Positions 39,551-62,584 of a stretch of 64,000 nt of DNA are shown here, piece after piece. The stretch is taken from positions 290,468-354,467 of the forward strand of contig DATCTV010000034.1 of NCBI GenBank assembly GCA_036567785.1. Direction: 5' to 3'. The translations under genes were made by a program, and so were the position numbers. Every line of letters begins with the position of its first letter. Positions within the stretch are counted from its first letter, which is position 1. This stretch comes from Desulfomonilia bacterium. GTDB taxonomy: Bacteria; Desulfobacterota; Desulfomonilia; UBA1062. The notes under the pieces were generated by a model. That model saw nothing but the letters and a program-made list of their open reading frames with translations. It was not told the DNA's origin and ran no database searches.

Positions 39551-39586
39551 ATATGGTGATGAATTCACTTTAAAGGAGATGAACGC

Positions 39587-40702
39587 ATGAGCGATCTGAT
39601 AGAAAACTCCCGGCTTTGTTCCGTCTGCTTCAAGATGTGCCGTGATGCCTGTTCCGTTGCCGCCGCCACCCGGCACGAGGCCGATTCCCCGCACAACCGC
39701 GGGTTTTTCGCCTATCGTATCATGCAGGGAAAGGCCGACCTTAATGCCAATATTGTGGATTATTTCTACCGCTGCTCGATGTGCAAGGCCTGCAGGGAAG
39801 CCTGCGAGACCGGGATCGACACCGGCGAGATCATGCTGAGCGCAAGAACCGGGCTGGATGACTCCTTGCTGCCTGCATCCGTGCTGGCAAAAAAGGCGGA
39901 TATAGTTTCAGGCAGAATCAATCCGGGGAATTCTGATGAGACAAGTTCGATCTTAAAGTCCTATACGGCAAGGCCGGACGCGCGAATTCTGGTATATTTC
40001 GGGCGCAGGCTTCGTGCGTACTGGGCTGATTCGGTACGGGGCACCGTTAATATTTTTGAAAAACTCGCCATCAATTTTTCCGCTCTGCCAGAAGATCCCG
40101 ATACCGGGAAGCTGGCATACTTCTTTGGATTTTCACGTGAGGCGGCAGAACTTGCAAAGAAATTCAAGGAGACGATAGAAGCTCGCTCGCCTGAAAAACT
40201 TGTGGTCATGTCAGCCGATGACCTGAGGATGATCAAACTGGAATATCCGAAACTGGGCCTTGATATCAAAAACATCGAAATCATAAGCCTGCCGGAATTC
40301 CTGCTTGCAGTTCTGAAAGAAAAAAAGCCAGCATTTGCAGGCTTCAAAAAAAGAAAAATCACATACCACGACCCCTGCGGGCTGGGCCGCGAGCTTCGTG
40401 TATTCGAAGCGCCGCGCGATATCATACGCATGGTTCCGGGCATTAAGCTTGTCGAGATGGCCTTTTCCCGCGATCGGGCTCCGTGCTGCGGCTATGGCTC
40501 CGGGCTCGAGATTAGCCATCCTGAAATCATGCGCGAAATGGCATCCCGCCTGATTGACGTTGCTCGCGAGTCAAAGGCTGATGTCCTTGTGACCGGCTGT
40601 CCGACATGCCGCAGTGTCCTCTTGGAAAACATGAAAAACAGCGGGGAATCAGGACCGGAAGTGCTCGACATTCCCGGTTTCCTTGAAAGGTGTCTGCAAT
40701 GA
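39587..40702 (+). CDS. CCG-domain iron-sulfur electron-transfer protein (GlcF/GlpC-like)
   Basis: A 371-residue Fe-S protein. Two N-terminal [4Fe-4S] motifs are visible: CSVCFKMCRDAC near residues 11-22, and CSMCKACREAC near residues 62-72. A CCG domain follows in the C-terminal half, with HDPCGLGRE (about 261-269), CCGYGSG (about 300-306) and TGCPTCRS (about 340-347). Such subunits (GlpC, GlcF, HdrD) pass electrons from an FAD dehydrogenase towards the quinone pool or a heterodisulfide. It lies 36 bp after the FAD oxidoreductase and overlaps the next, GlpA-like gene by four bases, so it may serve either flavoprotein. Confidence 0.87.
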   Translation: MSDLIENSRLCSVCFKMCRDACSVAAATRHEADSPHNRGFFAYRIMQGKADLNANIVDYFYRCSMCKACREACETGIDTGEIMLSARTGLDDSLLPASVLAKKADIVSGRINPGNSDETSSILKSYTARPDARILVYFGRRLRAYWADSVRGTVNIFEKLAINFSALPEDPDTGKLAYFFGFSREAAELAKKFKETIEARSPEKLVVMSADDLRMIKLEYPKLGLDIKNIEIISLPEFLLAVLKEKKPAFAGFKKRKITYHDPCGLGRELRVFEAPRDIIRMVPGIKLVEMAFSRDRAPCCGYGSGLEISHPEIMREMASRLIDVARESKADVLVTGCPTCRSVLLENMKNSGESGPEVLDIPGFLERCLQ

Positions 40703-42357
40703 ACAATGAATTGATATCATGGAGTGCGAAAGACCGTCCGGAATACTTGAAAAAGCTCAAAGAAACCTCCTTCGATGTTCTGATCGTTGGCGGCGGTATA
40801 ACCGGCGCGGGCGTATTGCGTGAATGCGGGCTGCAGGGGGTCAGGGCGGCCCTTATTGAAAAGGACGACTTCGCATTCGGGACATCATCCAAAAGCACCC
40901 GACTGGCTCACGGCGGGGTCCGCTATATTATCAACGGCGAGTTCGGCCTCGTGAGGGAGGAAACGCACGAGCGTGACTGGATGCGCGGCGCATTTCCCAA
41001 CCTGGTTCGGCCGGTGCCAATCATCTTCGCATGCTACAGCCTTAAGGAGGCTGTCATGGTCGGGATCGTACTCGCCATTTACGATGCCCTGTCCGGCTGG
41101 AAAAATTACCGCATCTCGCGCTTTTTGAACATAGACAAGATCAGGAAGCTCGAACAGGATATGACCTTCAAGGGTATACATTCAGGATACCTTCTCTACG
41201 AGTGCATAACCAACGACGCCAGGCTAACCGCCGAGGTCGTCAAGGAAGGGGTCATGCTTGGGGGCACGGCGCTCAACTATGTAAGGGCAAAAGAGGTTTT
41301 CATGGAAAACGGCCGCGCAGCAGGCGTAGAGGCTATTGACCGGGAGACCGGCGAGACCTTTGCCATAAGGGCGAAAAATGTCGTCAATGCCTCCGGGCCG
41401 TGGACCGACGAACTCCTTCCCGGAGATTACAATGAAGGGAGCCGCCTGATAAGGCCGGCCAAAGGCGTTCACATCGTCGTAAAGCGCGAAGCGATAGGCA
41501 ACCGTGGAGGGCTATATGTCAAGAACCCGGTGGACAAGCGAGGCGTTTTCGTGCTGGCCCATGGCGATTTTACCTATCTGGGGACCACCGACACCGAATA
41601 TACAGGCGACCTTGACAACTGCTACACAGAAAAGGAGGAGTACGAATATTTCAGGAATATTACCAACGCGAGCCTGCCTGCCGCCCGATTCGAACCCGGG
41701 GACCTTATAGGCACCTATGCCGGGAACCGTCCTCTGGTCCACCAGGAAGGGCTCTCCGAGGACAAGACCTCGCGCAGGGAATATATTGACGAGGTGAAAC
41801 CCGGGTTTTTCGTGCTAACAGGCGGAAAGCTCACCATTTTCCGGACCATGGCGCTCAAGCTGCTTAATTACATGTCGGCGAAAGGCGCCTCCTCAATTGC
41901 CGAACCCGACAGAAGGCTTTCGAAGAAGAGGTTTTCCCTTTCGCTTACAAAGGACGAATGGAACAGCCTGATTCGCAAAACATTCGGTGATAAGGGCCCC
42001 GGGCTTGACGCCGGTACCGTGGAGCACATCTACCAGAACTACGGGAAGGGCGGTATCGTCATACTTGAAATGGTGCGTGATGACCCGTCGCTTGCAGAGC
42101 ATGTTACATACGGCCAGCCCTACATCATGGCCGAGATCGCCTACTGCATGGAATACGAAATGATAACTCACGTGAAGGACTTTCTTCTGCGCCGCACGAA
42201 CCTTTCCCTGCACCAGCGCGATAACCATGAGGAACTGGGCCGGAAGGTGGCCCGGTTCATGGCGGTACATCTTGGCTGGAGCGATTTGCGCATCGAAGAC
42301 GAAGTCAGTGAATATGCAGCTCTGGCCCGTAAGAACAAATTTTTCTTATCCGAATAA
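40699..42357 (+). CDS. glycerol-3-phosphate dehydrogenase-like FAD protein
   Basis: A 552-residue FAD protein of the GlpA/GlpD family. The N-terminus shows VLIVGGGITGAGVLREC, then the diagnostic GTSSKSTRLAHGGVRYI segment (about residues 60-76), and the C-terminal helical domain of respiratory G3P dehydrogenases follows. YIDEVKPGFFVLTGGKLTIF is the usual last FAD contact. The ATG overlaps the stop of the Fe-S gene (ATGA), with AAAGG upstream. It oxidises glycerol 3-phosphate, or a related polyol phosphate made by the FGGY kinase encoded next, presumably to dihydroxyacetone phosphate. The aerobic (GlpD) or anaerobic (GlpA) type cannot be fixed, but the partner Fe-S protein favours GlpA-like work. 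Confidence 0.88.
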   Translation: MNNELISWSAKDRPEYLKKLKETSFDVLIVGGGITGAGVLRECGLQGVRAALIEKDDFAFGTSSKSTRLAHGGVRYIINGEFGLVREETHERDWMRGAFPNLVRPVPIIFACYSLKEAVMVGIVLAIYDALSGWKNYRISRFLNIDKIRKLEQDMTFKGIHSGYLLYECITNDARLTAEVVKEGVMLGGTALNYVRAKEVFMENGRAAGVEAIDRETGETFAIRAKNVVNASGPWTDELLPGDYNEGSRLIRPAKGVHIVVKREAIGNRGGLYVKNPVDKRGVFVLAHGDFTYLGTTDTEYTGDLDNCYTEKEEYEYFRNITNASLPAARFEPGDLIGTYAGNRPLVHQEGLSEDKTSRREYIDEVKPGFFVLTGGKLTIFRTMALKLLNYMSAKGASSIAEPDRRLSKKRFSLSLTKDEWNSLIRKTFGDKGPGLDAGTVEHIYQNYGKGGIVILEMVRDDPSLAEHVTYGQPYIMAEIAYCMEYEMITHVKDFLLRRTNLSLHQRDNHEELGRKVARFMAVHLGWSDLRIEDEVSEYAALARKNKFFLSE

Positions 42358-42386
42358 AAGCTGACTGTTTTTAAAGGAGCGTCAGG

Positions 42387-43937
42387 ATGAGTAACACGGA
42401 TGATCTGATCCTGGCCATAGACAGCGGCACCCAGAACGTGAAGGCTGCCGTATTCGATCTGAACGGCAATCAGCTCGCGCTGTCGCGGATGGCGAACGAA
42501 CCCGATTCGGCCCCTCGCCCCCTGTGGGTTGAGCATGACCCGGAAGATTACTGGAAAAAACTCTGCGAAACGGTACGTGAGGTGCTTGCCTCAATCGGCC
42601 CGGACATCGGGAAACTCAAGGCAGTGGGGCTTACCTCACAACGCGGTACGGTCATTCCCATGGACAGTCAAGGCAATATCCTCAGGCCTGCAATAATCTA
42701 TCTGGATGGACGAGAGACCGTTGGACTTCCTCCTTTAGGCGGTTTCTGGGGCTTCTTCTTCAGGGTCATCGGCAAGAAGAGCGCAATCGACTACGTGCGC
42801 AGACATTCGCGCTTTCTGTGGATCAGGCAGAACGAACCCGATGTCTACCGCCGGACACACAAGTTCATGCAGGTCGCGAGCTTTCTTAACTACCGGCTCA
42901 CGGGAGAGATCAATGAATCCATAGCCATGATGGTAGGGATGTTCCCGATAGACTACACGAAATTCAAATTCTATCCGTTCAAGGGGATTCACGAGGCATT
43001 CGGGGTGACTCCCTCCATGCTCCCCGAGTTGATGCGGCCTCAGAGCATAACCGGCCGCATAACCCGGGAGGCCGCTCGTGAGACCATGATTCCCGAAGGG
43101 CTGCCCGTCGTGGTCGGCGGCGGAGACCAGCAGTCCGCAATGATCGGAATGGGCGTCACCGATGAAAGACACGCCTCCCTCGTGCTCGGGACGACCATCG
43201 GCCTCAATATCCCTTCTAAGAAATATATCAATGACAAAAATCTCATTTTTCTGCCATGGCCATCCGCGATCCCTGACGAATACATTCTCGAGGTGGGAGT
43301 TGGCGGCGGCCTGCTTACCGTCTCATGGTTCGTTAAGGAACTGGCCGCGCACGAGGCAATACTCTCGAAAGATGAAAACAGACCTGCCGAAGAGATACTG
43401 GAGGAGACCATCCGAGACATCCCGCCGGGTTCGCTCGGCCTGATGGTTCAGCCTTACTGGAATGCGCCTTTCCATCGGCCCGAGGCCAGGGGTTCGATGC
43501 TGGGATTTTCAATGGCACACACCCGTGCGCATCTCTACCGGGCGATTCTCGAAGGCATGGCATATGAAATCAGAGCCGGGTATGAGGCCATCCATAAACA
43601 GACCGGGATTACGCTCTCCGAGATACGCGTCTCTGGCGGAGGCTCTCAGAGCGGCATGCTGCTTGCCATTTTGGCCGACGTTTTCGGCATACCGGCGGTA
43701 CGCACACAAGTCGGTGAAGCAGGCGCCCTGGGGGCGGCCATATGCGCCGCGGCGGGTGCGGGTCTTCTGCCCGATTTCAGGGCCGGGATAGAAAAGATGG
43801 TGCATGTCAAGGACCGCTTCGAGCCTGATCCGGAAAACCACAAGATTTATGAAAAGATGTACAGCGCCTACCGGAAGATATATCCGAGAGTGGGGGACCT
43901 GTATAAAGAGACCGAAGGCATTGCATCGGACAAATAA
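42387..43937 (+). CDS. FGGY family carbohydrate/polyol kinase
   Basis: A 516-residue FGGY kinase (glycerol, xylulose and related substrates). The N-terminal phosphate loop is LILAIDSGTQNVKAAVFD, followed by VGLTSQRGTVIPMD (about residues 72-85). The FGGY-type C-terminal signature is EIRVSGGGSQSGMLLAILAD, then GEAGALGAAICAA. It contains an unusual insert near residues 115-140 (LGGFWGFFFRVIGKKSAID). In this operon it would phosphorylate the substrate brought in by the GPH symporter, giving the ester oxidised by the GlpA-like protein. It is not a canonical GlpK, as length and inserts differ, so another polyol is possible. Confidence 0.87.
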   Translation: MSNTDDLILAIDSGTQNVKAAVFDLNGNQLALSRMANEPDSAPRPLWVEHDPEDYWKKLCETVREVLASIGPDIGKLKAVGLTSQRGTVIPMDSQGNILRPAIIYLDGRETVGLPPLGGFWGFFFRVIGKKSAIDYVRRHSRFLWIRQNEPDVYRRTHKFMQVASFLNYRLTGEINESIAMMVGMFPIDYTKFKFYPFKGIHEAFGVTPSMLPELMRPQSITGRITREAARETMIPEGLPVVVGGGDQQSAMIGMGVTDERHASLVLGTTIGLNIPSKKYINDKNLIFLPWPSAIPDEYILEVGVGGGLLTVSWFVKELAAHEAILSKDENRPAEEILEETIRDIPPGSLGLMVQPYWNAPFHRPEARGSMLGFSMAHTRAHLYRAILEGMAYEIRAGYEAIHKQTGITLSEIRVSGGGSQSGMLLAILADVFGIPAVRTQVGEAGALGAAICAAAGAGLLPDFRAGIEKMVHVKDRFEPDPENHKIYEKMYSAYRKIYPRVGDLYKETEGIASDK

Positions 43938-43966
43938 TACGTTATCTATTTCTAAGTGAGGTGATT

Positions 43967-45334
43967 ATGGAAATCAGTGAGGAAAGAGACCGGCTAAGCA
44001 TTTCCACAAAAATATTTTATTTGTTCGGCGATATCGGCATATCCATATGCCTGTCGGCCGTGGCGTTTTTCATACTGTTCTATTATGCCGATGTGGCCAA
44101 GGTCGACCCGGCACTTGTAGGCACCGCCCTTCTTCTTGGAAAGCTCTGGGATGCCGCCAGCAACCCTCTTTTCGGATGGATTTCAGACCGCACAAAATCC
44201 CGCCATGGCCGCCGCAAGGTCTATCTCTACTACTGCTCGATCCCTCTGGGTATATCATTTGCACTGCTCTGGGCCATGCCCGAAGGCTTGACCGGCGTCA
44301 TGACCACTGTCTGGATTATTGTCACATTTCTCATCTACTATACCTTCGATAACATCGTAGGGGTATCCTACTATGCCATGACGCCGGAACTCACGCGTGA
44401 CTATGACGAGCGCACGAGCCTGACAACCTTCCGCATGATAGGCGGCACCGTGGGATATATGGCTGGCGCCGCCCTGCCGCCCTTTATCGCGGGTCTGTTC
44501 GCAACAGGGAAGATCGGATGGAGGATGATGGGCATCATGTTCGCGGTCTTTGCCGTGATGTGCCTCTATATAACGGCCTTCGGGGTCAAGCAGCGCAAGG
44601 AGCTCGAAGGGCCTCCTTCCAAGCTGCCAGTGCTCCCTTCAATAATCACCTGCTTTAAAAACAAACCTTATGTATATCTGATCATCCAGGGGCTGTTTAC
44701 AGGCATCAGTTTTGTTCTTGTCATGTCGTACATGGCTTTTTACCTCACATACCAGCTCAACATGAAAGACAAGATACCCATCATGATGGTCCTGCTCCTG
44801 GCCACGATAGGTGTTTTTCTCTTTTTCTGGAAATGGGTCACCGACAAATGGGCAAAGGGTCCGACCTATGCCCTGGGCCTGTTCATAGCATTCGGCGCCA
44901 CCGCATTATCGTTCTTCCTGCCGCAGGGCGGCAGCCTCTGGATATACCCCATCGTCTTCGTTGCAGGTTTCGGGTTCTCGGCCCAGTGGGTCCTTCCCTG
45001 GTCAATTATTCCGGATGTGATAGAGTATGATGAACTGATAACCGGAGAGAGGCGCGAAGGAATTTATTACGGGGTGAAGGGCCTGACCGACAAGGTCGCC
45101 TGGGCCCTGGGGCTTTTCGTGGGCGGCTGGGTGTTGAAGCTTTTCGGTTTTGTGCCCGAAGCAGCACAGAGCGCGAAATCTCTGCTGGGGATAAAACTCT
45201 TTTTCGGCCCGATTCCTGCGCTCGTGACATTCATAAGCCTGCCGCTCCTGATCTGGTTCCCTATCAACCGGAAAACCCATGCCGAGACGCTGGCCAAACT
45301 GAAGCTCAAGAAGGGGGAAAGCAGATCAGAATAA
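43967..45334 (+). CDS. GPH family sugar/polyol symporter (MFS_2)
   Basis: A 455-residue inner-membrane transporter of the glycoside-pentoside-hexuronide:cation family, with 12 predicted helices. The family marks are an N-terminal YLFGDIGISICLSAVAFF helix, the loop GWISDRTKSRHGRRKVY (about residues 67-83), and PWSIIPDVIEYDELITGERR (about residues 344-363). It is the last gene of the five-gene operon. GAGGTG precedes the ATG at 43967, favoured over a GTG six bases upstream. It most likely imports, with Na+ or H+, the glycoside or polyol used by the kinase and dehydrogenases in the same operon. Confidence 0.9.
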   Translation: MEISEERDRLSISTKIFYLFGDIGISICLSAVAFFILFYYADVAKVDPALVGTALLLGKLWDAASNPLFGWISDRTKSRHGRRKVYLYYCSIPLGISFALLWAMPEGLTGVMTTVWIIVTFLIYYTFDNIVGVSYYAMTPELTRDYDERTSLTTFRMIGGTVGYMAGAALPPFIAGLFATGKIGWRMMGIMFAVFAVMCLYITAFGVKQRKELEGPPSKLPVLPSIITCFKNKPYVYLIIQGLFTGISFVLVMSYMAFYLTYQLNMKDKIPIMMVLLLATIGVFLFFWKWVTDKWAKGPTYALGLFIAFGATALSFFLPQGGSLWIYPIVFVAGFGFSAQWVLPWSIIPDVIEYDELITGERREGIYYGVKGLTDKVAWALGLFVGGWVLKLFGFVPEAAQSAKSLLGIKLFFGPIPALVTFISLPLLIWFPINRKTHAETLAKLKLKKGESRSE

Positions 45335-48148: not shown

Positions 48149-48988
48149 TTATTTGCCTGTTTTTTTCATTTTCCTTTGAGTCATCCGGATCACCATATCC
48201 GAAGTCATCCTGGTAAGCCAGCCGTTTGATATGCGGTGCAAAAGCCAGAGAAAGCGAGTAGGCGCACCCGGTATGAACAGGTACTTCTTCTTTTCGATGG
48301 CCTCGACGATCACCTTTGCCGCTTCATCCGGCATCATGAGCATGCTCATGTTCTTGACGGCCCTTCCTTCTTCCGGCAGGGTCTTGGCCTCGTCTATGTT
48401 CATTGGTGTGTCCACCTCCGGCGGGCATACGACCGTCAGCGGAATCCCCATCGGCTTGAATTCGTAGCGCAGACTGTCGCACAACCCGAGAAGGGCGGCT
48501 TTGGACGTGCCGTAGGCCGTGTACCCGAACATGCCGAAAAAAGCCGCCGCGGAAGAGAGCACCACGACATGGCAGCGCTTTTTCTTTATCTCGGGCAAAA
48601 GTGTCTGGATGACATTTCGCGGCCCGTAGAGGTTTATTTTCATGACCTCGTCGAACATGTCAAAGGTAATATTCTCGAACCTGTCCGCATATTTGTTTAT
48701 TCCGGCGCTGCTGATGAGAATATCAGGTGCGCCGTATTCGTCCACGGCAGCCTTCATCTTCGCCTGAACATCGGTGAGATCGGCAACGTCCATGGATAAT
48801 GTTCCTATGCGCTGGGTTGGCCTCAGCTTGAAGTTCTCTATCGTCTTTTTCGCCGATTGAAGCCTTTCCTCGTTGCGGGCTATCAGGAGCAAGTCGGCGC
48901 CCCTTGCGGCGAATATCTTGCCCATTTCGAGCCCTATGCCGCTGGAGCCGCCGGTCATAAATATCATCCTGCCGTCAAAGCTTTTCAT
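48149..48988 (-). CDS. short-chain dehydrogenase/reductase, 3-ketodihydrosphingosine reductase-like
   Basis: A 279-residue classical SDR using NAD(P)H. It has the cofactor loop TGGSSGIGLEMGK near residues 12-24, the SAGINKY turn (about residues 92-98), catalytic Ser in VLSSAAAFF, and YGTSK as the Tyr-x3-Lys pair near residues 158-162. The TGGSSGIG start, ARNEERL cofactor-specificity loop (an Arg suggesting NADPH) and PPEVDTP segment recall 3-ketodihydrosphingosine reductases and other lipid-type SDRs. A basic C-terminal tail of about 30 residues could associate with membrane. GAGGAG precedes the ATG. It lies 13 bp after the VOC gene. Confidence 0.87.
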   Translation of the reverse strand: MKSFDGRMIFMTGGSSGIGLEMGKIFAARGADLLLIARNEERLQSAKKTIENFKLRPTQRIGTLSMDVADLTDVQAKMKAAVDEYGAPDILISSAGINKYADRFENITFDMFDEVMKINLYGPRNVIQTLLPEIKKKRCHVVVLSSAAAFFGMFGYTAYGTSKAALLGLCDSLRYEFKPMGIPLTVVCPPEVDTPMNIDEAKTLPEEGRAVKNMSMLMMPDEAAKVIVEAIEKKKYLFIPGAPTRFLWLLHRISNGWLTRMTSDMVIRMTQRKMKKTGK

Positions 48989-49001: not shown

Positions 49002-49571
49002 TTATACCGTTATCGCTTTTGTATCGCCGGTTATGCGGCCCAGGTTTATGAGCCACTCAGGCATGCCGAGGTTAAGGCCGAAGGCCTTTGTCTCAATGAG
49101 TTCCAGTATCAGACCCGCTTTGTCGACTGTGTCCAGGTAGGCTACCCTGGTCTTGCCTCCGCCCGCATATTTGAGAGTTCCTTCCTGCAGCGGCGCAAAG
49201 CCCCTGTCCCGCATGATGCGCCGGGCTTTATCCAGGTTATCTACCACGACCCCGAAATGATGAAATCCGAACCCCGCTTCTCCCGGATGTGCGCGGTAGA
49301 TATTATCGTCGCTGCCGTGCACCTGGATGAGTTCTATCTGCGTCTTGCCGGAATAACCGACAGCGATGTCGAGCATGATATCGACCGGACGGTCGCGGTA
49401 ATAATAAGAACATTCGGTAATTATCGTGTGGTACCATTTTGGTATGTTGAAGAAGTCTCTGTAGAATTTAACACCCCCCAACAGGTCAGGCACCACCATT
49501 CCTATCTGCGTGACGGCTGGAAGATCAAGGCCGTCCGGACTTACCGGCGGTTTGTTAAATGGCTTCATCAT
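49002..49571 (-). CDS. VOC (glyoxalase-fold) family protein
   Basis: A 189-residue vicinal-oxygen-chelate protein with paired beta-alpha-beta3 modules. QIGMVVPDLLGGVKFYRDFF near residues 20-39 starts the first module, with Gln in place of the usual first metal His. GFHHFGVVVDNLDKARRIM begins the second, with its metal His, and a late Glu is in LILELIET. The pattern resembles methylmalonyl-CoA epimerase-like or extradiol-type VOC proteins, but the catalytic role is open. GAGGGG precedes the ATG at 49571. It lies between the TetR gene (94 bp) and the SDR gene (13 bp) on the same strand. Confidence 0.82.
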   Translation of the reverse strand: MMKPFNKPPVSPDGLDLPAVTQIGMVVPDLLGGVKFYRDFFNIPKWYHTIITECSYYYRDRPVDIMLDIAVGYSGKTQIELIQVHGSDDNIYRAHPGEAGFGFHHFGVVVDNLDKARRIMRDRGFAPLQEGTLKYAGGGKTRVAYLDTVDKAGLILELIETKAFGLNLGMPEWLINLGRITGDTKAITV

Positions 49572-49665
49572 GCAACCCCTCTTTTTGCATGTCTGCATCT
49601 TCTGTTCTGATAAAGTAACACTGTTGACTTTAAAAATCAAGCAAAGCATTCAAGGCGGCCTGAGG

Positions 49666-50295
49666 TCATGTATAAGACTTTACGACCTCATCGAGAATCC
49701 AGTCTATGGCCTTGTCTATATTGCGAACTTCGAGTGTTACCCTGCTTATGTAAAGCGAGACCATGCCGTGAAGGGTGCTCCATATCTGCAAAAGATGAAA
49801 GGGCGTTTCTCTGGCTGGAAACCGGCCTGTCTTTTCGGCAACGGCGTTTAAGATCGAGACCGCTATCTCAGGGATTTCGAGTGCTACTCTGTTCTGCCTT
49901 TCCGCTACAGGCTCCATTGCGGTGCCTCGGTAGTCACTGTATTTGGGGGTGTCCATGCTGAACATGATGTTGTAGTAGTGCTTGTTTTCTATCCCCCATT
50001 TAACGTAGGCATGCACGGCGGCACGGAACTTCTTAAGAGGATCTGCTGACGAGCGGTCCGCTTTTCGGAACTCTTCCGCAAGGTCGGAAAAGCCCTTTAT
50101 AAGCACCATCAGGTAAAGCTCGTCCTTGTTGGAATAGTAGTTGTATATCGTCTTTGCCGTGAAACCCAGGCGTCTGGCCAGCTTGCGCATGCTGAGGTTC
50201 GTATATCCCTCCTCGTTGATTATGAAGAGGGCCTCCTTCAGTATGCGCTCTCGCGTTGCGGTAATAGCCTCGGGTGTGGCCGGAATCTTTGGCAT
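49666..50295 (-). CDS. TetR family regulator (paralogue of the regulator at 55.2-55.9 kb)
   Basis: A 209-residue TetR repressor with an N-terminal HTH (SMRKLARRLGFTAKTIYNYYS, residues ~34-54, shown here only as the helix-turn-helix region). Its ligand domain contains HYYNIMFSMDTPKYSDY, then TAMEPVA, very close to NYYNIMFNWAVPKYNDY plus TAMEPTA in the regulator of the glycyl radical enzyme operon. The two are clearly paralogues and should sense similar ligands. It starts the minus-strand VOC-SDR-DUF362 unit and faces the double-hotdog gene. A 13-bp palindrome at 50353-50365 in the divergent promoter region is a natural operator. GGAG precedes the ATG. Confidence 0.92.
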   Translation of the reverse strand: MPKIPATPEAITATRERILKEALFIINEEGYTNLSMRKLARRLGFTAKTIYNYYSNKDELYLMVLIKGFSDLAEEFRKADRSSADPLKKFRAAVHAYVKWGIENKHYYNIMFSMDTPKYSDYRGTAMEPVAERQNRVALEIPEIAVSILNAVAEKTGRFPARETPFHLLQIWSTLHGMVSLYISRVTLEVRNIDKAIDWILDEVVKSYT

Positions 50296-50456: not shown

Positions 50457-51344
50457 ATGGAGATCAGTCCCGCATTTGTCGGAACCCGCCTGAAAGATTA
50501 CAGGTGTGTCATTACATGGCGGCAGAGCATGAACTATGCAGCGGCCGTTAATGATATCAACCCGTGGTATTTCAACGATGAGAGCCCCTGCGGCGTCATA
50601 GCACCGCCCATGCAGGCCGTGGCGGTCACCTGGCCTGTTCTGGAGCATATCAAAGATTATCTTCCTGATGACGGATTCCCGATGGAAACGCTCCTTACAC
50701 AGGTGCATTATTCTGAACACCTTCAGTTTCACAGGCCGATAAGGCCCTGCGATGAGCTTACGATAAAAGGCCGGATTGCGGCCATCGTTCCTCACAGGGC
50801 AGGGACGCATGCGGTAATCCGTCTGGATGCATTCGACTCCTCAGGGGCTCCGGTCTTCACGGAACATAACGGGGGCATGCTGAGGGGTGTGAAATGCGGC
50901 GGCACGGGGCGCGGGGAGGTTGACCTTCCTGTTGCACCTTTGCCGCTTTCCGCAGGGGATGAAATATGGAAGGCGGGCATACATATCGATCATCTCGCCC
51001 CCTTTCTTTATGACGGGTGCACCGGCATTTTTTTCCCTATCCATACGTCGGTGAAGTTCGCCCATACCGTGGGACTTCCGGGGATTATCCTTCAGGGTAC
51101 GGCCACCTTGGCCTTTGCCGCGCGTGAGATAATAAACCGTGAAGCCGGGGCCGACCCGAGGCGCCTGAAGACGCTCTCATGCAGATTCAGCGGCATGGTT
51201 CTTCCCGGCGAGGACATCTCGGTCAATCTTCTGGAACGGAGGCTCGATTCCGGAGGCATGGATTTATTCTTCGATGTGGGGAACGCTTCAGGCGGCAAGG
51301 CCATCAAAAAAGGCTATGCCAGGATAGAAGATATTAATGACTAG
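50457..51344 (+). CDS. double-hotdog (MaoC-like) protein
   Basis: A 295-residue protein with two hotdog folds, like hydratase-2 (MaoC) proteins acting on acyl-CoA. The first half contains YAAAVNDINPWYFND near residues 23-37, HYSEHLQFHRPIRPCDEL near residues 83-100, and TIKGRIAAIVPHRAG. The second half carries HTSVKFAHTVGLPGIILQGT near residues 199-218, the region that normally carries the catalytic Asp-His pair of R-specific enoyl-CoA hydratases. Here the expected acidic residue is not clear, so catalysis is uncertain. AGGAGG precedes the ATG. It is transcribed divergently from the TetR-VOC-SDR-DUF362 unit and its stop overlaps the end of the activase gene by three bases. Confidence 0.8.
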   Translation: MEISPAFVGTRLKDYRCVITWRQSMNYAAAVNDINPWYFNDESPCGVIAPPMQAVAVTWPVLEHIKDYLPDDGFPMETLLTQVHYSEHLQFHRPIRPCDELTIKGRIAAIVPHRAGTHAVIRLDAFDSSGAPVFTEHNGGMLRGVKCGGTGRGEVDLPVAPLPLSAGDEIWKAGIHIDHLAPFLYDGCTGIFFPIHTSVKFAHTVGLPGIILQGTATLAFAAREIINREAGADPRRLKTLSCRFSGMVLPGEDISVNLLERRLDSGGMDLFFDVGNASGGKAIKKGYARIEDIND

Positions 51345-52237
51345 AATACGTTTATCTCAAAGCCTTTGAAGATTTCTTTTATATGCCCTTTTTCGCCCGG
51401 GTCCATCCATGTCCTGCGCCCGTATTCGGGTTTCAACCCCAGTGCATCAAGCTTGGAAAGCCACAGCGGGTTGTAGGGCAGGAGCTCCACCTTGTTCAAC
51501 GACAGACCCGATAGATAGTCGCGCAGAGCGGTCAGGTTTTCGTCTGTTGTCGTGATTCCAGGCACCAGGGGTATGCGCGGCAGCAGCTCAACTTTTTTTT
51601 CAGCGAGCAGTGCCTCGAAATTGGCCAGTATCGCTTTATTTCCTATGCCGCAGAAACGTGCATGTTCTGAAGCGTCGAAGAGCTTGAGGTCGAAATATAC
51701 GATATCTAGGAATGGCAGGATAGATTCTTCGAATGAATGCCTGTCATACTGCCCGCATGTTTCCATGCAGACGTTTATGCCCTGCTCTTTCAAGAGGGGC
51801 AGAAGCCGTCTGAGATAGGCAGGGTGCATGCCCGGCTCGCCGCCCGAGAGTGTGACGCCGCCGCCCGTGTTGCGGTAGAAGACGGCGTCCTTGGCGAGGA
51901 TATTCACAAGCTCCTCCTCTTTATATGTCCTGCCTGCGAAAGCAAGCGCCTCTTCGGGACAGGCCCGCACGCATGCGCCGCACATGGTGCACCGCGAGCG
52001 ATCAAAAGGATAACCTCCCGCCGTGAAATTGAGCGCATTCTCCTTGCAGGCCTTTCTGCATTCTCCACAACCCTGGCATTTTTCCTGCTTGTAGATTATC
52101 TCCTGCGCTGGTGTTTTAGTTTCCGGGTTCTGGCACCACACGCAATTCAAGGGACAGCCCTTGAAGAATACGAGCGTACGGATACCCGGACCGTCGTCCA
52201 GCGAGTTTCTCTTGATGTCGGCTATCAGAGTATTCAT
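51341..52237 (-). CDS. glycyl radical enzyme activating protein (radical SAM activase)
   Basis: A 298-residue radical SAM activase that abstracts the glycine hydrogen of its partner enzyme. The SAM cluster motif CPLNCVWCQNPE starts near residue 30. An insertion with two ferredoxin motifs follows (CQGCGECRKAC near residues 55-65 and CTMCGACVRAC near residues 84-94), the larger type that accompanies dehydratases, decarboxylases and alkylsuccinate synthases rather than classical PFL-AE. SGGEPGMHP and VYFDLKLFD continue the barrel. It starts 10 bp after the glycyl radical enzyme stop, without a clear ribosome site, so it is coupled to it. Confidence 0.93.
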   Translation of the reverse strand: MNTLIADIKRNSLDDGPGIRTLVFFKGCPLNCVWCQNPETKTPAQEIIYKQEKCQGCGECRKACKENALNFTAGGYPFDRSRCTMCGACVRACPEEALAFAGRTYKEEELVNILAKDAVFYRNTGGGVTLSGGEPGMHPAYLRRLLPLLKEQGINVCMETCGQYDRHSFEESILPFLDIVYFDLKLFDASEHARFCGIGNKAILANFEALLAEKKVELLPRIPLVPGITTTDENLTALRDYLSGLSLNKVELLPYNPLWLSKLDALGLKPEYGRRTWMDPGEKGHIKEIFKGFEINVF

Positions 52238-52247
52238 GGCGCGCCCG

Positions 52248-55202
52248 TTAGCGGCAGGCGAATTCAGCCCTTTCTATGAGCTCTTCCTGCATATTTCGGT
52301 TCAGTTTGACGAAATATGCGTTATAGCCCGAGATGCGCACGATGAGCCAGCGGTATTCGTCCGGGTTCGCCATTGCGTCACGCATGGTGTCCGAGCTTAT
52401 CATGTTGCATTGCCACTGCATGCCGCCCAGGTCGAAATAGCTCTGGACATAGCCTGAGAAGATATCGAGCGTCCTTCCATGCGAATCTCCGGGATGCGGA
52501 ACGAGCTTCACGTTGAATGAGAGGTTATTGGGCATCTTGAAGTTGTCGAGTGCGGCTACTGTCCGGATGTTTTCGAGCAGGTTGTCTGAAGAGCCGGGTG
52601 CAGGCGTAAGTCCGGGCGTGAAAGCCTTTCCCTTCTTCCTGCCCGAAGGAAGCGCCCCCGAGAGCATGCCGAAACCCACGTGATAGCTGTTCGACCAGTA
52701 TCCCGGCCAGTATACACCGCCTCTGTAATTCTTCTGCGCCGTGAAGTAGTCGTAGCAGAAATCCATGATGTCGTGGGCCATGGCGATCGGTTCTTCCTCG
52801 CCCGAACCGAACTTGGGGACACGACCGATCATCCTCTCGACGTCCTCGAATCCCGCGAAATCCGCGGCAAGTGCATCCAGCAGCGTTGAGAAGTCGATTT
52901 TTTTCTGTTTGTAAATGAGATTCTTAATGACCATGAGGCTGTCAATGACATCGGATATCGATACGAGCGCGACACCGGAGGTGTTATACTTTGCCCCGCC
53001 GAAGATTATATCGCATCCCTTTTCCATGGTGCCGTCCATCATTGCTGAAAGCAGCGGGGTGGGGTGCTGTTCCTGGTGTGCGCAGCCCATGTAGTTGTTT
53101 ATCTCGACAGAGAGTTCCATTAGATATTTAAGCTGAGTCTTGTATGCGGCAAGGAAGTCTTCAAATTCGGGAAAAGCGTAGCGGGCGTCGCCCGTTTCAG
53201 GTCCTATTTTCTCTCCCATTACCGGATGCACGCCATTGTTTAGCGCCATTTCAAGAGGCGCTACGAGGTTCAGCATCATGCAGTTGGTATGTCCGTAGTG
53301 GCGGCCGGTGATGGTGGGTTCGACGCACCCGGTGGCCGACCAGTCACGCGCATCCGCAAGCGGGATGCCCTCGTTGACGAGAACTTCAATCATGGCCTTG
53401 TCGTTCTGAATGATCGGGCTTGCCGCCATATTGAGGTTAACCTCGCAAAGCCTTCTCAAGTATTCCTTTGAATTAACGCCGGGATAATACTTGGCGTTCA
53501 TGTTGGGGTCCTGGAAGCAAAGCATTTCCGCCGCCTTCAGAATGATATAGGTCATATCGTTGACCGCGTTGTTTCCTTCGCTGTCGATGCCGCCCACTGT
53601 TACCGTGTCATCTGAAGATGTGCCGCCGAAGAGTTTGTTGCCTGTGCTTGGTACGAGCGGGTCATGATCGTTGAACCTCATGAAAAGACTGGCCACCAGC
53701 TCTATCGTCTTCTTGACTATGGCCCTGCGTTCGTCATCCGTGGCCGCTTTTGCTATGTCCTTCATGAAGAAGGGCTGCAGGAGCTGGTCAAGTCTGCCTA
53801 TGGAGAGCGCGGAGTTGGCGTTTTCAATCTGCAGGCAGGTAAAGCATATCCAGATGGATATGATCGCCTCATAAACGCTTTCCGCAGGACCTGCAGGGAC
53901 CTTGGCGCATATGCGCGCCATCTCGGTGAGTTCTGTAATGCGTTCAGCCTGGGCGGGATCTTCGGGGTTGAGTGTCGAAGCCAGCAACATTGCCTCGCGG
54001 CTTAGATGCTGCGCATAACAGAGAACACCGTCGATGGATACCTGTACCGCCTGGTAGAAGTTCTTCTTGTCATGGGTATGCGCCTTGGTTTCCTTTTCGT
54101 AGGCCTTATCACGGATCGAAATCAGGCCCTCGTTGATGGCGGTCTTGAAGTCAGGAACGGTATGCGAGATGGCATTGTTCTTCATCATGAAATAGAGCAC
54201 GAAGCGTTCTTCAAGCTGCTGTGAAAGCGGGTTTCCGAAGCGTTTGCGTGTGTGCTCGCGTATGTTGCGCTCGGCCCAGAATGGAAAGACCTCCCGGTTG
54301 AGAATATCGGCCTCTTCCGGCGTCAGGTCGCAGGGGTTGAGATCGCGGGTGCTTATGCTCTTGAGTTCGGGCCAGATAAGGGTGCCAATGAACTCGGGAT
54401 ATATGGGTACGCCCACCTCCTTGGACGTGGTGGACCCAGGTATAAGATGACGTTCATGTATAATGGGACGTTTGTTCTCCATGCAGTAGCGCATGGCATG
54501 GGCCTGTCGCAGGTTGGCGTCGAAGACGGCTCCGCTTGAGGTGTGCTCGAAACCATATTCGCGGTGGTAGCGTGTGAGAAGCTGCGCCCTCTCGACACAA
54601 AGCGCCGGTTTCATGGCGAAGCGCCTGTTCTTAAGATATTTGAGCCTCGGGAAATCCTCCAGCGTGTATTCTTCCAGGTATGGATCGTCGAGTACCTGTA
54701 CTGTGTCCACCTTGCGTCCAAGCTTCTCGTTTACCATCCTGCGGCGCTTTGCACCCTTGTCGATATCCACGACTTCCCGCATCGACGGAACAATATTCTT
54801 TTTTTTGCCGCCTCCCGCGATAAGCGTCGAGAGATAGGAAAATTTTGTTAGGTAGGACATGTTCCCTGTGGAGGACATTTCGTTCGTGAGCAGATAGTCT
54901 ATGGATTCCTCAGGGTTCTTTGCAAACAGGCGGGCCAGTGTTTCCTTGTCGCGGTAGGCGATTATCGTATCAGGATTTTCTATAATACCTGTACCCGTAC
55001 GCACTTTCCCGTTGTCAAAGATCATGTAAACATGGACTTTTTCATCACGCGTCTTGAACTGGAAGCGGGCGTTGAATATGCAGCCGGTTTCAGTGTTGTA
55101 TATCTCACGCCTGAATCTGGGGACGGTGGAAAATATGGCCGCCAGGGCCTTTAGGGACATTTTGAATGCAAACACCGACGCATCGGTACGGAACTTGTTC
55201 AT
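52248..55202 (-). CDS. glycyl radical enzyme with N-terminal SCP2-like domain
   Basis: A 984-residue glycyl radical enzyme. The PFL-type core spans about residues 180-984, with the thiyl cysteine in TGCVEPT (Cys626, Glu628) and the glycyl radical loop VRISGYNAYF (Gly959). Ahead of it, residues ~35-130 resemble the SCP2 sterol-carrier fold (HVYMIFDNGKVRTG, PDTIIAYRDKETLARLF, SSTGNMSYLTKF), an addition not found in known PFL, dehydratase or benzylsuccinate-synthase enzymes. Diol dehydratases have an Asp 14 residues after the thiyl Cys; here it is Asn640, so a simple diol dehydratase is unlikely. Expression is likely controlled by the TetR gene 45 bp upstream, and the activase gene follows. AAGGAGGG precedes the ATG. 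A hydrophobic or lipid-like substrate is inferred. Confidence 0.9.
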   Translation of the reverse strand: MNKFRTDASVFAFKMSLKALAAIFSTVPRFRREIYNTETGCIFNARFQFKTRDEKVHVYMIFDNGKVRTGTGIIENPDTIIAYRDKETLARLFAKNPEESIDYLLTNEMSSTGNMSYLTKFSYLSTLIAGGGKKKNIVPSMREVVDIDKGAKRRRMVNEKLGRKVDTVQVLDDPYLEEYTLEDFPRLKYLKNRRFAMKPALCVERAQLLTRYHREYGFEHTSSGAVFDANLRQAHAMRYCMENKRPIIHERHLIPGSTTSKEVGVPIYPEFIGTLIWPELKSISTRDLNPCDLTPEEADILNREVFPFWAERNIREHTRKRFGNPLSQQLEERFVLYFMMKNNAISHTVPDFKTAINEGLISIRDKAYEKETKAHTHDKKNFYQAVQVSIDGVLCYAQHLSREAMLLASTLNPEDPAQAERITELTEMARICAKVPAGPAESVYEAIISIWICFTCLQIENANSALSIGRLDQLLQPFFMKDIAKAATDDERRAIVKKTIELVASLFMRFNDHDPLVPSTGNKLFGGTSSDDTVTVGGIDSEGNNAVNDMTYIILKAAEMLCFQDPNMNAKYYPGVNSKEYLRRLCEVNLNMAASPIIQNDKAMIEVLVNEGIPLADARDWSATGCVEPTITGRHYGHTNCMMLNLVAPLEMALNNGVHPVMGEKIGPETGDARYAFPEFEDFLAAYKTQLKYLMELSVEINNYMGCAHQEQHPTPLLSAMMDGTMEKGCDIIFGGAKYNTSGVALVSISDVIDSLMVIKNLIYKQKKIDFSTLLDALAADFAGFEDVERMIGRVPKFGSGEEEPIAMAHDIMDFCYDYFTAQKNYRGGVYWPGYWSNSYHVGFGMLSGALPSGRKKGKAFTPGLTPAPGSSDNLLENIRTVAALDNFKMPNNLSFNVKLVPHPGDSHGRTLDIFSGYVQSYFDLGGMQWQCNMISSDTMRDAMANPDEYRWLIVRISGYNAYFVKLNRNMQEELIERAEFACR

Positions 55203-55247: not shown

Positions 55248-55889
55248 TCAACTTGACGGCAGAAATGGTGCGAGTGCGTCTTCAGTCAGGCGCTTCACGA
55301 CCGGCAGGGGATCGCTCTCGTACTCGTGCATGCCGCGGCTGTTGTACAGCGAGACCACTCCGTGCAGGTTTGTCCACAGCTTCAGGATGAGATAGCCTGC
55401 ATCACCGCGGGGGAATCCCTCGTTCGCCTTTGATATCTCCTTCAATACCTTGCCAGTTATGTCGGCCAGGCGGAAGGCGGTCTCTTTTTCGGCACGGGCC
55501 GTAGGCTCCATCGCGGTGTTGATGTAGTCGTTATATTTGGGAACGGCCCAGTTAAACATTATGTTGTAGTAGTTTGCGTTCTTTATCCCGAAATCCACGT
55601 ATTCCCTGCACATGGCCCTGAGCTTCTCGACCGGGTCCGTCAGATTTTCTATGGCGGCCTCCATTTTTGCATTGAGGATATCGAACCCCCTTGTGAGCAC
55701 CATGAGGTATATCTCCTCCTTGCAGGAGAAGTAGTTATAGAGTGTTTTTGCGGCGAAGCCGAATTTACCGGCAAGGCTGCGCATGGTCAGGTTGTCGTAG
55801 CCGCCTTCTGCTATTATCTCAAGCGCATAGTCGAGAATGCATCCGCGAATCTCGGCAACCTTTTCCGCTGGACGCGCTGATTTCGGCAT
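55248..55889 (-). CDS. TetR family regulator of the glycyl radical enzyme operon
   Basis: A 213-residue TetR repressor. The HTH lies around residues 33-52 (LAGKFGFAAKTLYNYFS) and the ligand domain contains NYYNIMF, PKYNDY and TAMEPTA, near-identical in arrangement to the TetR at 49.7-50.3 kb. Its stop is 45 bp before the glycyl radical enzyme start on the same strand, so it likely autoregulates the operon. Upstream lies a TATAAT with overlapping palindromes (55911-55955). A GGGAGG box precedes the ATG. The paralogy suggests a shared or related effector for two neighbouring operons. Confidence 0.92.
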   Translation of the reverse strand: MPKSARPAEKVAEIRGCILDYALEIIAEGGYDNLTMRSLAGKFGFAAKTLYNYFSCKEEIYLMVLTRGFDILNAKMEAAIENLTDPVEKLRAMCREYVDFGIKNANYYNIMFNWAVPKYNDYINTAMEPTARAEKETAFRLADITGKVLKEISKANEGFPRGDAGYLILKLWTNLHGVVSLYNSRGMHEYESDPLPVVKRLTEDALAPFLPSS

Positions 55890-55910: not shown

Positions 55911-55975
55911 ATTACGTAACATCAACATAGTTACAGTAACTAAGTTACCATTATAAGTCAAGACATATTTGTCTT
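55911..55975 (-). promoter_or_regulatory. promoter with palindromic operators for the TetR-glycyl radical enzyme operon
   Basis: On the minus strand TATAAT lies at 55950-55955. The 13-bp perfect repeat AGTTAC-A-GTAACT (55929-55941) covers the expected start point, and TTACGTAA (55912-55919) follows. Upstream is AAGACA-TATT-TGTCTT (55960-55975). The GTTAC units resemble the operator candidate of the paralogous TetR. Confidence 0.55.
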
Positions 55976-56053
55976 GTTAAGATTAATCACAAATTCATAA
56001 TGCCTTATGGAAATAGTATTGACTGTATATGTTTTAGAAGTAAGCATGTTGAT

Positions 56054-56562: not shown

Positions 56563-57159
56563 TTACCCGTTCATCCCCTTGAATATGAGACTGAAAAACT
56601 GATCTGCGATATGTTCGATACCGGGCAGCCGCTTTCTTTTGTGGTTAAGGACAAAGTAATAATAAACGACCCTCAAAAGCGCGCCGATTATCATGTTGGC
56701 TATGATTTCGGTATCCAGGTCTTTGTTGACGAAGCCGGCATCCACACCCTTCTGAAGGTCTTCGACGACATACCTGACCATCTTGCGTTCGAAGATGTCG
56801 ACAAATGAGACGTGCAGTTCGTTCACGCTTGGGCCGATCTTCAGGTAGAGGTTGCAGAGGTCTTCATGCTCCTTGAAGAACTTGAGGCTGCGGGCAACAA
56901 GGGCCTTGTAGTATCCAAGAATATCTTTTTGCGCGAGTTCGGATAATGGAACCTGGGCCGCCTGCTCCCACTCATCGAGAAATTTTACAAGGATGGAAAT
57001 GAAGAGTTCCTCCTTGTTCTTGAAATAAAGGTAGAAGGTTCCTTTGCCTATCCGGGCTTCTTTCAGGATGGTTTCAACATGGGTATTGTAATAGCCGTTT
57101 TTTGCGAACAGTTTTGTGGCGCATGTAATGATCTGGTTTTTTCGTAATTCAGCCTTCAT
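56563..57159 (-). CDS. TetR family regulator of the Fe-S/GMC unit
   Basis: A 198-residue TetR repressor distinct from the other two. The HTH is near residues 25-45 (VETILKEARIGKGTFYLYF), a well-conserved TetR pattern. The effector domain is helical, with ARSLKFFKEHEDLCNLYLK. The start at 57159 has AAGG upstream and removes 15 atypical residues from a longer alternative at 57204. It faces the Fe-S protein gene across a 162-bp region holding an 18-bp perfect palindrome (57252-57269), so it probably represses that pair and itself. Confidence 0.9.
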   Translation of the reverse strand: MKAELRKNQIITCATKLFAKNGYYNTHVETILKEARIGKGTFYLYFKNKEELFISILVKFLDEWEQAAQVPLSELAQKDILGYYKALVARSLKFFKEHEDLCNLYLKIGPSVNELHVSFVDIFERKMVRYVVEDLQKGVDAGFVNKDLDTEIIANMIIGALLRVVYYYFVLNHKRKRLPGIEHIADQFFSLIFKGMNG

Positions 57160-57251
57160 CGACCTTGTTCCGCCATTTAAAGCCCCTTGTCCAATGTAAG
57201 CCATGATTTGCTTGACTTCGACTTTTATCAGCGTATAAATTAAATTATACA

Positions 57252-57269
57252 GACCTGACGCGTCAGGTC
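57252..57269. promoter_or_regulatory. TetR operator, 18-bp perfect palindrome
   Basis: GACCTGACG-CGTCAGGTC, an uninterrupted palindrome midway between the divergent TetR and Fe-S genes, the classical arrangement for a TetR operator. It differs in sequence from the GTTAC-type sites of the other two regulators. Confidence 0.7.
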
Positions 57270-57321
57270 AATTAATTTATAATATCTATTTGATAATTTC
57301 AAAATGGGATGGAGGGTACAT

Positions 57322-60661: not shown

Positions 60662-62584
60662 ATGGATAAAAGTAAGGGTTTTGCTGTCGTACTCCTGATC
60701 TTTTTTGCGGTTTCTCTCGTCTTCATTGCAGGCTGCAAAACGTTAAGGGCCCCTGTGCTGGATGAGCTTTCAATCAAAGGCGTCAGTTCCAGGACAATAA
60801 CGCTCGATGCGCCTAAACTTATTGATGCCGGCAAACCAGAGGCGTCATTGAACGCATACATAGGTTTAACCGGAGAGATCAAATGCGACGGCACGGATGT
60901 GACATCCGCAATTGAGGGCCCTGTCGATGTGCGCAAGTCCGGATACCAGTTCAAGGGGCTTGTAACCGGAATGAGCTATGACATCATCGTAGTGGCCGCG
61001 AACATCTGCGGCAGTTCGGTGAAGACTGCGGCGGGCATAACTCCGGCTACGCCGCAAGTGGACCCGGCATCGTACCCGGGAATAGACGGCGACGAGATGG
61101 GGCTTTTCAGGTGGTACCTCAATGTGGCCGACGACCCCATCGATGATTTCAGCAAGATCGAGTCGTTCGATCCTGAACAGGGAGGCCTTTCTTCATACAG
61201 ATACACCCTGGCTTTCATGACATACTTCATGACGATCGAGCAGTACCACAAGCTGCCGGCTTGTCCCGAGATTATCAGGCCAAGGATGGACAGGTTGATA
61301 CAGAAAATGATCGAAAGGCCCGTCTGGTCATACTGGGCTGAAACAAGCAAGGGAGTTCCGCCTCTTGAGCCTCTGCTCAACAAACCCTACCCTGAGGCAC
61401 ACGATCCCGTGTCGGACAGGAACATCATGTACTCCGGTCACCTGGGGCAAATGATCGCCTCCTACGAGATGCTCTACCGGGATATGAAATGGTCTCGGCC
61501 AGGCTCCATCGTCTTTAAATTCAGCGATGACGAACAGTTCGTGTACGACAACAACTCGCTTCAGAAGGTCATGCACGATCAGATGAAGAACAACTGGCAC
61601 AAAAGCATAGCCTGCGAGCCCAATGCCGTTTTTCCCGAATGCAACCAGCACCCGGTGATGTCTTTCATGCTGTACGACAGCGTGCATGGTACGAATTACG
61701 GCGAGGCCAGGAACGCATTCATGGATTTCTTCCTCCAGGCAAGGATGATAAGCCCCGTCACTCACGAGGCATGCCTCTTCTTCCTCATCAAGCAGAGGGC
61801 GACGGTCTCACAGGAATTTGCTAATTTCGGCAACATTATTTCGCTGGTGAGTGTTCCTGCGGCATGGCTTGGTCTTATAAATGTGAGGACATCAGTGGCC
61901 AACGGCTGGACCGGGACATTCATGCACGCATGGCAGCCGGAGTTCATTGAGAGACATTATCCTTTCCAGAAGGCCAGAAGAATAGTTGAACCCGACGCGA
62001 ACACAGCTTATCTCAAGACCGAAATGGTGCTGGACCAGATTGCGACCCCTTTCTTCGCCATGCTTGCGGCCGAGGTGGGAGACCTTTCGACAAGAGACAA
62101 GCTTATCGCCTGGTGCAAGGACTACTACAAGCCATCCTGGGAAAATGGCATGCTTAAATATCCGGTCTGCGAACCTGTCAACATAATCGATCCGAGGAAA
62201 AACTTCACCCCCACAAGCCAGGCCCTGACAGGGGCGCTTATCGCCTATGCAATGGCGAACAAGAAGGATGGCCAGAGAGATGTCATACAGAAGCCTTTTA
62301 CTGACAGGAACTTTACTTCACCCGAAATCACTAAAGTGGACTACCCGAATGTACTTGTAAAGCGCGCCATATACGACTTTGAAAAGGAGGCCCTCATCTT
62401 GACAACCGAAGGCGGTGCTATGACTCAAGGTTCAACAGTAATAAACATCGAAAGGCTCGACCCGCTTCGTATCTGGGATTTGATCATTGACGGACAGTAT
62501 ATCAGGAAGCTCTCCGGTGTATCGTCATTGCCCCTGGAGATAGGTCTTGACAGGAAGCATGACATAGTATTGGTGGCCGAATGA
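60662..62584 (+). CDS. linalool dehydratase/isomerase-family lipoprotein
   Basis: A 640-residue lipoprotein. The signal peptide ends with the lipobox FIAGC (Cys25), followed by an Fn3-like beta domain of about 110 residues. The C-terminal ~500 residues match linalool dehydratase/isomerase (Ldi). They carry NIMYSGHLGQM (His260), HDQM, ACEPNAVFPECN (Cys318 and Cys327, the same nine-residue spacing as the two catalytic cysteines of Castellaniella Ldi) and LYDSVHGTNYGEARNAF. Ldi hydrates or isomerises tertiary allylic alcohols such as linalool and geraniol, and is periplasmic. A GGGGGAT box precedes the ATG. It could act on terpenoid or other prenyl alcohols at the cell surface. The Fn3-like lead and lipid anchor are not in the known enzyme. 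Confidence 0.83.
   Translation: MDKSKGFAVVLLIFFAVSLVFIAGCKTLRAPVLDELSIKGVSSRTITLDAPKLIDAGKPEASLNAYIGLTGEIKCDGTDVTSAIEGPVDVRKSGYQFKGLVTGMSYDIIVVAANICGSSVKTAAGITPATPQVDPASYPGIDGDEMGLFRWYLNVADDPIDDFSKIESFDPEQGGLSSYRYTLAFMTYFMTIEQYHKLPACPEIIRPRMDRLIQKMIERPVWSYWAETSKGVPPLEPLLNKPYPEAHDPVSDRNIMYSGHLGQMIASYEMLYRDMKWSRPGSIVFKFSDDEQFVYDNNSLQKVMHDQMKNNWHKSIACEPNAVFPECNQHPVMSFMLYDSVHGTNYGEARNAFMDFFLQARMISPVTHEACLFFLIKQRATVSQEFANFGNIISLVSVPAAWLGLINVRTSVANGWTGTFMHAWQPEFIERHYPFQKARRIVEPDANTAYLKTEMVLDQIATPFFAMLAAEVGDLSTRDKLIAWCKDYYKPSWENGMLKYPVCEPVNIIDPRKNFTPTSQALTGALIAYAMANKKDGQRDVIQKPFTDRNFTSPEITKVDYPNVLVKRAIYDFEKEALILTTEGGAMTQGSTVINIERLDPLRIWDLIIDGQYIRKLSGVSSLPLEIGLDRKHDIVLVAE

Follow-up and report, generated by a model that had tools for sequence, protein, structure and literature searches.

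What does a glycyl radical enzyme (GRE) do with a lipid-carrier domain of its own? The question is raised by an open reading frame (ORF) in a 64,000-nucleotide stretch of contig DATCTV010000034.1 from a Desulfomonilia bacterium (hereafter, the window), in which a preliminary description had recognized a GRE core preceded by a region resembling SCP2 proteins. The host is an anaerobic bacterium and the GRE is an oxygen-sensitive radical enzyme.

A GRE with an SCP2 domain at its N-terminus

The 984-residue ORF (Table 1) is a complete GRE, with Cys626, Glu628 and Gly959 all in place. Both GRE domains scored far above the Pfam cut-offs, and Cys626 and Gly959 were unchanged in an alignment of 21 orthologs, which upholds the earlier reading of a complete PFL-type core. 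The N-terminal extension is also real, but the stretch before the PFL core comprises about 185 residues, slightly more than the roughly 150 first described.

Table 1. Features at the GRE locus, in positions of the window
Feature	Position	Strand	Details
Short-chain dehydrogenase (SDR)	48149..48988	minus	SDR cluster near the GRE in 9 loci, including the window
Glyoxalase/VOC protein	49002..49649	minus	distantly like methylmalonyl-CoA epimerase; possible accessory
Second TetR regulator	49666..50295	minus	45% identical to the first
MaoC-type hydratase	50457..51344	plus	295 aa; convergent with the activase; possible accessory
Radical-SAM activase	51341..52237	minus	298 aa; PFLE_PFLC type, ferredoxin-like 4Fe-4S motifs
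GRE with N-terminal SCP2-like domain	52248..55202	minus	984 aa
Glycine-radical domain (Gly_radical)	52308..52622	minus	residues 861-965; Pfam PF01228, E 2.5e-19
Gly959 codon (glycyl radical)	52326..52328	minus	within RISGYNAY; RVxGY-type motif
PFL-like core	52668..54647	minus	residues 186-845; Pfam PF02901, E 8.7e-159
Glu628 codon	53319..53321	minus	general acid/base of GRE eliminases
Cys626 codon (thiyl radical)	53325..53327	minus	within GCVEP
SCP2-like domain	54813..55160	minus	about residues 15-130; family profile, Pfam, predicted fold
TetR regulator	55248..55889	minus	TetR_C_33; weakly FasR/KstR/FadR-like; upstream of the GRE
Palindrome ACATAGTTACAGTAACTAAGT	55925..55945	none	possible TetR operator
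Palindrome CAAGACATATTTGTCTTG	55959..55976	none	second possible operator

SCP2 was the top Pfam family for the N-terminus, the window protein alone scoring 17.4-18.3 bits against a gathering score of 21.3 (PF02036), and 18 of 41 family N-termini matched it at E ≤ 0.05 (best E 9.5e-6). When a profile of the family N-termini was compared with PDB sequences, the best four matches were all SCP2 proteins, with E 0.007-0.008 for the top three. An AlphaFold2 model of residues 1-145 alone (pLDDT 79) retrieved SCP2 structures in Foldseek at E 3e-6 with a prob of 1.00; in VIA-align, the same model matched SCP2 with Z 13.4 (2.4 Å over 108 aligned residues), as against Z values of about 7 or less for other folds. 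The model of the full-length GRE, computed from the 21-sequence alignment, was poor (pLDDT 58). Since the family Pfam matches, the profile-PDB comparison and the predicted fold agree, the N-terminus is an SCP2 domain, and on this point the preliminary description was borne out.

The structural matches found by VIA-align included the SCP2 domains of the alkylsulfatases SdsA1/Pisa1 and of MFE-2. In these proteins, as with UbiJ, an SCP2 fold is attached to, or works with, enzymes acting on aliphatic or lipid substrates, but the catalytic domains are unrelated to that of the window GRE and use no glycyl radical. None of the GREs tested outside the clade described below carried an SCP2-like domain, as had been stated for known GREs, and we found no description in the open-licence literature of a GRE joined to SCP2. 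The GRE-SCP2 clade is apparently undescribed: SCP2 is a new and functionally suggestive partner, while the GRE chemistry is ordinary by all signs.

The window's genome as a whole contains twelve SCP2 matches above the Pfam cut-off, one of them within a 1280-aa open frame and two in a single 397-aa frame.

Fused and split forms in a separate clade

A genome scan recovered 25 ortholog loci, 57-68% identical to the window GRE. Most were from Lokiarchaeota, with others from Jordarchaeia and Njordarchaeum; the bacterial orthologs came from Desulfatibacillum alkenivorans DSM 16219, another Desulfobacterales MAG, Syntrophomonadaceae and a Bacillota MAG. Whether fused or split, the domain (scored as a match to residues 1-200) was present in 43 of the 395 genomes of the window's phylum, and the window's own genome has a second family member, 45% identical to the first. 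The enzyme is accordingly not the single oddity that it had seemed, but one member of a family that is widespread in bacteria and Asgard archaea and exists both fused and split.

In the split form (loci L099-L103), the GRE has about 820-830 residues and lacks the N-terminal extension, and it is directly followed by a separate ORF of about 147 aa that is SCP2-like. In L099-L101 this ORF sits immediately between the clade GRE and the activase: the junctions measure +3 to -3 bp, and it overlaps the activase slightly. The same GRE-SCP2 gene pair occurs in L027 and L035. Five standalone SCP2 ORFs outside the set from which the profile was built still matched it (E 1e-28 to 1e-33), and all 93 profile matches among the loci examined were either clade GREs or standalone SCP2-like ORFs. 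Fusion in one branch and adjacency in the sister branch are therefore good evidence that the domain works with the clade GRE.

Two further proteins accompany the split GRE in L099-L102. A conserved protein of 803-823 aa is encoded upstream of it in all four loci, and the L099 copy had no Pfam match at E ≤ 0.001; downstream of the activase is a gene for a DUF6765 protein.

In an 81-row quick tree (45 rows of fused and 5 of split GREs), the fused enzymes formed one group and the split enzymes another, and the two were joined in one clade on a long stem. Support for this clade was 100, and it was 100/100 in a second, 24-row tree computed under a mixture model. Branching outside it were glycerol dehydratase (iGDH), 1,2-propanediol dehydratase (RiPDD), the trans-4-hydroxyproline dehydratase HypD, CutC, PflB and the X-succinate-synthase-like GREs; HMMER alignments supplied the reference sequences of PDB entries, so that a few end residues are absent and CutC is partial. 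The core stands apart from all characterized GREs sampled, as had been anticipated, in trees whose rows comprised no decarboxylases, isethionate sulfite-lyase or sulfopropanediol dehydratases.

The window GRE also fell far below the cut-offs of every NCBIfam equivalog compared, namely HypD (393 bits, cut-off 1100), CutC (375.7 bits, cut-off 1050), the sulfopropanediol dehydratases, the indoleacetate and hydroxyphenylacetate decarboxylases and PFL, and it was below that of the subfamily model TIGR01774 as well (512.8 bits, cut-off 678.2). Its best PDB sequence match (382.6 bits), and the nearest solved relative in the trees, was PflD of Archaeoglobus fulgidus (2f3o), which shares the GCVE motif and an Ala at the position of A465 but has no SCP2 domain and branches outside the clade. 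PflD itself has no more than a proposed function, reportedly that of an alkylsuccinate synthase.

The Asgard GREs were nested within the bacterial ones, a topology that would fit an apparent transfer of the clade GRE from bacteria to Asgard archaea. Mis-binning is unlikely to account for all of the Asgard loci, because some have Asgard-type genes beside the GRE (in L045, a Roadblock/LC7 protein is encoded downstream of the activase) and some lie on long contigs (515 kb for L050).

The catalytic Cys was embedded in G-C-V-E in 50 of 50 clade members (45 fused and 5 split), and His347, equivalent to His164 of iGDH and also a His in HypD, was kept in 47 of them; residues of the clade signature include Trp836, Gln929, Lys341 and Ser958. 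Judged by these residues, the active site is of the GRE eliminase type (C-V-E). The C-x-E motif also occurs in GRE decarboxylases.

With iGDH (1r8w) and RiPDD (5i2a), the window GRE has in common the PFL-like barrel, the GCVEP motif, the His164 equivalent and the kind of activase. It differs from them in its SCP2 domain, in its separate clade and in the pocket, where His281, Ser282 and Asp447 of iGDH, which we take to be the diol substrate contacts, are changed to S464, A465 and N640; on these replacements we rejected a simple glycerol/propanediol dehydratase. CutC and HypD likewise share eliminase chemistry with C-x-E, but their other pocket residues differ and they have no SCP2 domain. Whereas E. 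coli PflB has a Cys-Cys catalytic pair, the window GRE has Gly625-Cys626 and lacks the second adjacent Cys. Because the Glu of GCVE is present and the diol contacts are changed, elimination (a dehydratase or lyase reaction) is the most likely reaction type that we infer from the conserved residues, in a pocket unlike those of known diol enzymes.

The X-succinate synthases (BssA, AssA/MasD) belong to the same superfamily, act on water-insoluble substrates and have small accessory subunits, but they have no Glu at Cys+2. In the X-succinate-synthase-like GREs of Desulfatibacillum, the motif is HQACMSP, with Ser at Cys+2 and, at Cys+15, an Arg presumably equivalent to the fumarate-binding Arg of benzylsuccinate synthase. 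The window GRE has Cys641 at Cys+15, and its family mostly Cys, Ala, Ser or Phe, with no Arg. Given an eliminase-type site and the missing Arg, the addition of a hydrocarbon to fumarate is unlikely, and the hydrocarbon option of the preliminary description is not supported for a reaction of this type.

Gene neighborhoods

The TetR gene, the GRE and the activase form, in that order, a tight minus-strand set, so the GRE does have a regulator and an activase of its own, as claimed. The activase starts about 10 bp downstream of the GRE and scored 278.8 bits against TIGR02494 (cut-off 174.35); its best score was against the HypD activase model, yet below that model's cut-off. Both palindromes of Table 1 lie upstream of the first TetR gene. 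The second TetR gene heads a run encoding the VOC protein, the SDR and a DUF362 protein. An operator common to the two TetR-controlled promoters was sought and discarded, as they share no 16-mer even with up to 3 mismatches allowed. No AFOR (aldehyde:ferredoxin oxidoreductase) gene lies near the GRE in the window.

Further features lie elsewhere in the window. A near-perfect palindrome, AGACCTGACGCGTCAGGTCA, occupies 57251-57270. On one side of it is a third TetR-like gene (56563-57204), on the other a divergent gene of ferredoxin type, which is followed by a GMC oxidoreductase gene. At 60662-62584 there is an apparent lipoprotein of 640 aa with a linalool dehydratase/isomerase domain (PF18566, E 5.7e-71). 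A plus-strand run at 38114-45334 looks like a polyol catabolic operon, encoding an FAD-linked oxidase, a CCG/4Fe-4S protein, a GlpD-like dehydrogenase, a xylulokinase-like FGGY kinase and an MFS transporter. The FAD-linked oxidase (38114-39550), of a kind seen in Asgard loci too, was considered as an alkyl-DHAP-synthase-like partner of the GRE and rejected: no curated model reached E 1e-70 with it, and a distance of about 8-14 kb from the GRE is too great for a pathway partner. A glycerol kinase in five loci of the same family is a real GlpK but adjoins Maf and MlaE genes, and probably belongs to a separate operon.

Across the family, the activase is a nearly constant neighbor and adjoins the GRE in most loci; apart from it, GRE neighborhoods vary greatly among lineages. 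The Desulfatibacillum orthologs L042 and L052 have no adjoining activase, in genomes that hold about ten GREs each. Elsewhere in the window's genome (locus L008, 589-3930, plus strand; contig C35, near 80870-84215), an activase and a complete GRE are encoded in one polypeptide of 1113 aa, of which the first ~285 residues are the radical-SAM activase, without a ferredoxin insert. Its homolog L148, from another genome of the phylum (G030), is a 1102-aa open frame, 70% identical over the 124-residue stretch tested.

TetR genes lie close to the GRE in 15 loci, AFOR genes in 13, acyl-CoA synthetase genes in 11 and SDR genes in 9. The AFOR loci include Asgard archaea, a Syntrophomonadaceae MAG and members of the window's own family, in which the arrangement AFOR-TetR-GRE recurs (L070, L071, L074, L077 and L082); in the Syntrophomonadaceae locus (L054) the same three genes are arranged differently. 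As the genomes carry 2-11 AFOR genes each, the chance of a fortuitous proximity to the GRE is a few per cent per locus, and, since several loci are syntenic relatives, the independent associations number only about four. A FadL transporter gene is found near the GRE paralog in the window's own genome, enoyl-CoA hydratase and thiolase genes in some Asgard loci, and a MaoC gene after the GRE in L068. As circumstantial evidence, these neighbors would suit the conversion of an aldehyde to an acyl-CoA.

Possible reaction and substrate

We see about an even chance that the protein is an eliminase-type GRE whose fused SCP2 domain captures a lipid-like substrate, amphiphilic and hydroxylated. Our guesses for this substrate would be long-chain vicinal diols or, as an attractive candidate, 1-O-alkylglycerol ethers. 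The water-insoluble substrate suggested earlier is plausible in view of the carrier fold and the fatty-acid-type neighbors; a steroid as that substrate has no specific support.

In such a reaction, the adjoining radical-SAM activase would install a radical on Gly959, to be relayed to Cys626, whose thiyl radical would abstract a hydrogen from the carbinol carbon of the substrate. Glu628 would deprotonate the substrate hydroxyl and the neighboring C-O (or other heteroatom) bond would break, to give an aldehyde or ketone, with water or an alcohol as the leaving group. The SCP2 domain would hold the greasy tail and present the polar head to the barrel, and AFOR, an SDR or alcohol dehydrogenase, and an acyl-CoA synthetase would pass the product into fatty-acid-like catabolism under TetR control.

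Archaea have ether lipids. By analogy with the C-N cleavage catalyzed by CutC, the clade could represent a new GRE activity, that of a radical ether lyase: C-O elimination would split the glycerol-ether bond of alkylglycerols or of archaeal ether-lipid cores and set free a long-chain alcohol together with a hydroxyketone. With a 1-O-alkylglycerol, the alkoxy group would be lost once hydrogen had been abstracted from the carbinol carbon, and the products would be a fatty alcohol and hydroxyacetone. We regard this more specific proposal as rather improbable, because no gene at the loci is diagnostic of an ether lyase. D. alkenivorans contains alkyl glycerol ethers (PMC5552659).

An alternative that we consider unlikely is that the SCP2-like domain has an accessory or regulatory role comparable to that of the small subunits in benzylsuccinate synthase or hydroxyphenylacetate decarboxylase, that it stabilizes or gates the glycyl-radical domain, and that the substrate is small and soluble. 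The accessory subunits of other GREs are separate small ORFs, just as the split form has a separate small ORF between GRE and activase, and the SCP2 domain is more variable among orthologs (42-57% identity to the window protein, as against 60-66% over the whole length); against this reading, the domain has a lipid-carrier fold that many structures match, and the neighbor genes are of the fatty-acid type. A lipid-biosynthetic or membrane-remodeling GRE, which the unusual ether lipids of the archaeal hosts and of D. alkenivorans might suggest, appears improbable in turn, given that the TetR, AFOR, acyl-CoA synthetase and FadL links look catabolic and that the distribution is patchy, with the apparent bacteria-to-Asgard transfer. 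Very improbable, finally, is an alkyl- or arylalkylsuccinate synthase: although Asgard GREs, those of Lokiarchaeota included, have been annotated as Ass/Bss by similarity (PMC8163825) and the core is distantly related to A. fulgidus PflD, we rejected fumarate addition on the active-site residues (Glu628 at Cys+2 in all members, the Arg at Cys+15 replaced) and on the placement of the X-succinate-synthase-like GREs elsewhere in the tree.

The family offers a concrete handle for a substrate search in its lipid-carrier domain, which one branch has fused to the GRE and the sister branch encodes separately. The clade is widespread in anaerobic bacteria and Asgard archaea, the latter mostly uncultured, and some of the Asgard GREs that have been loosely labeled alkyl- or benzylsuccinate synthases may belong to it. 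Newly found GRE clades have often proved to catalyze anaerobic reactions not seen before. Should the substrate be a sedimentary lipid, the clade would be relevant to the breakdown of such lipids in the absence of oxygen, a question that is still open; and if the ether-lyase proposal were true, it would represent an anaerobic recycling route for ether-lipid necromass, common to Desulfobacterota-type bacteria and Asgard archaea.
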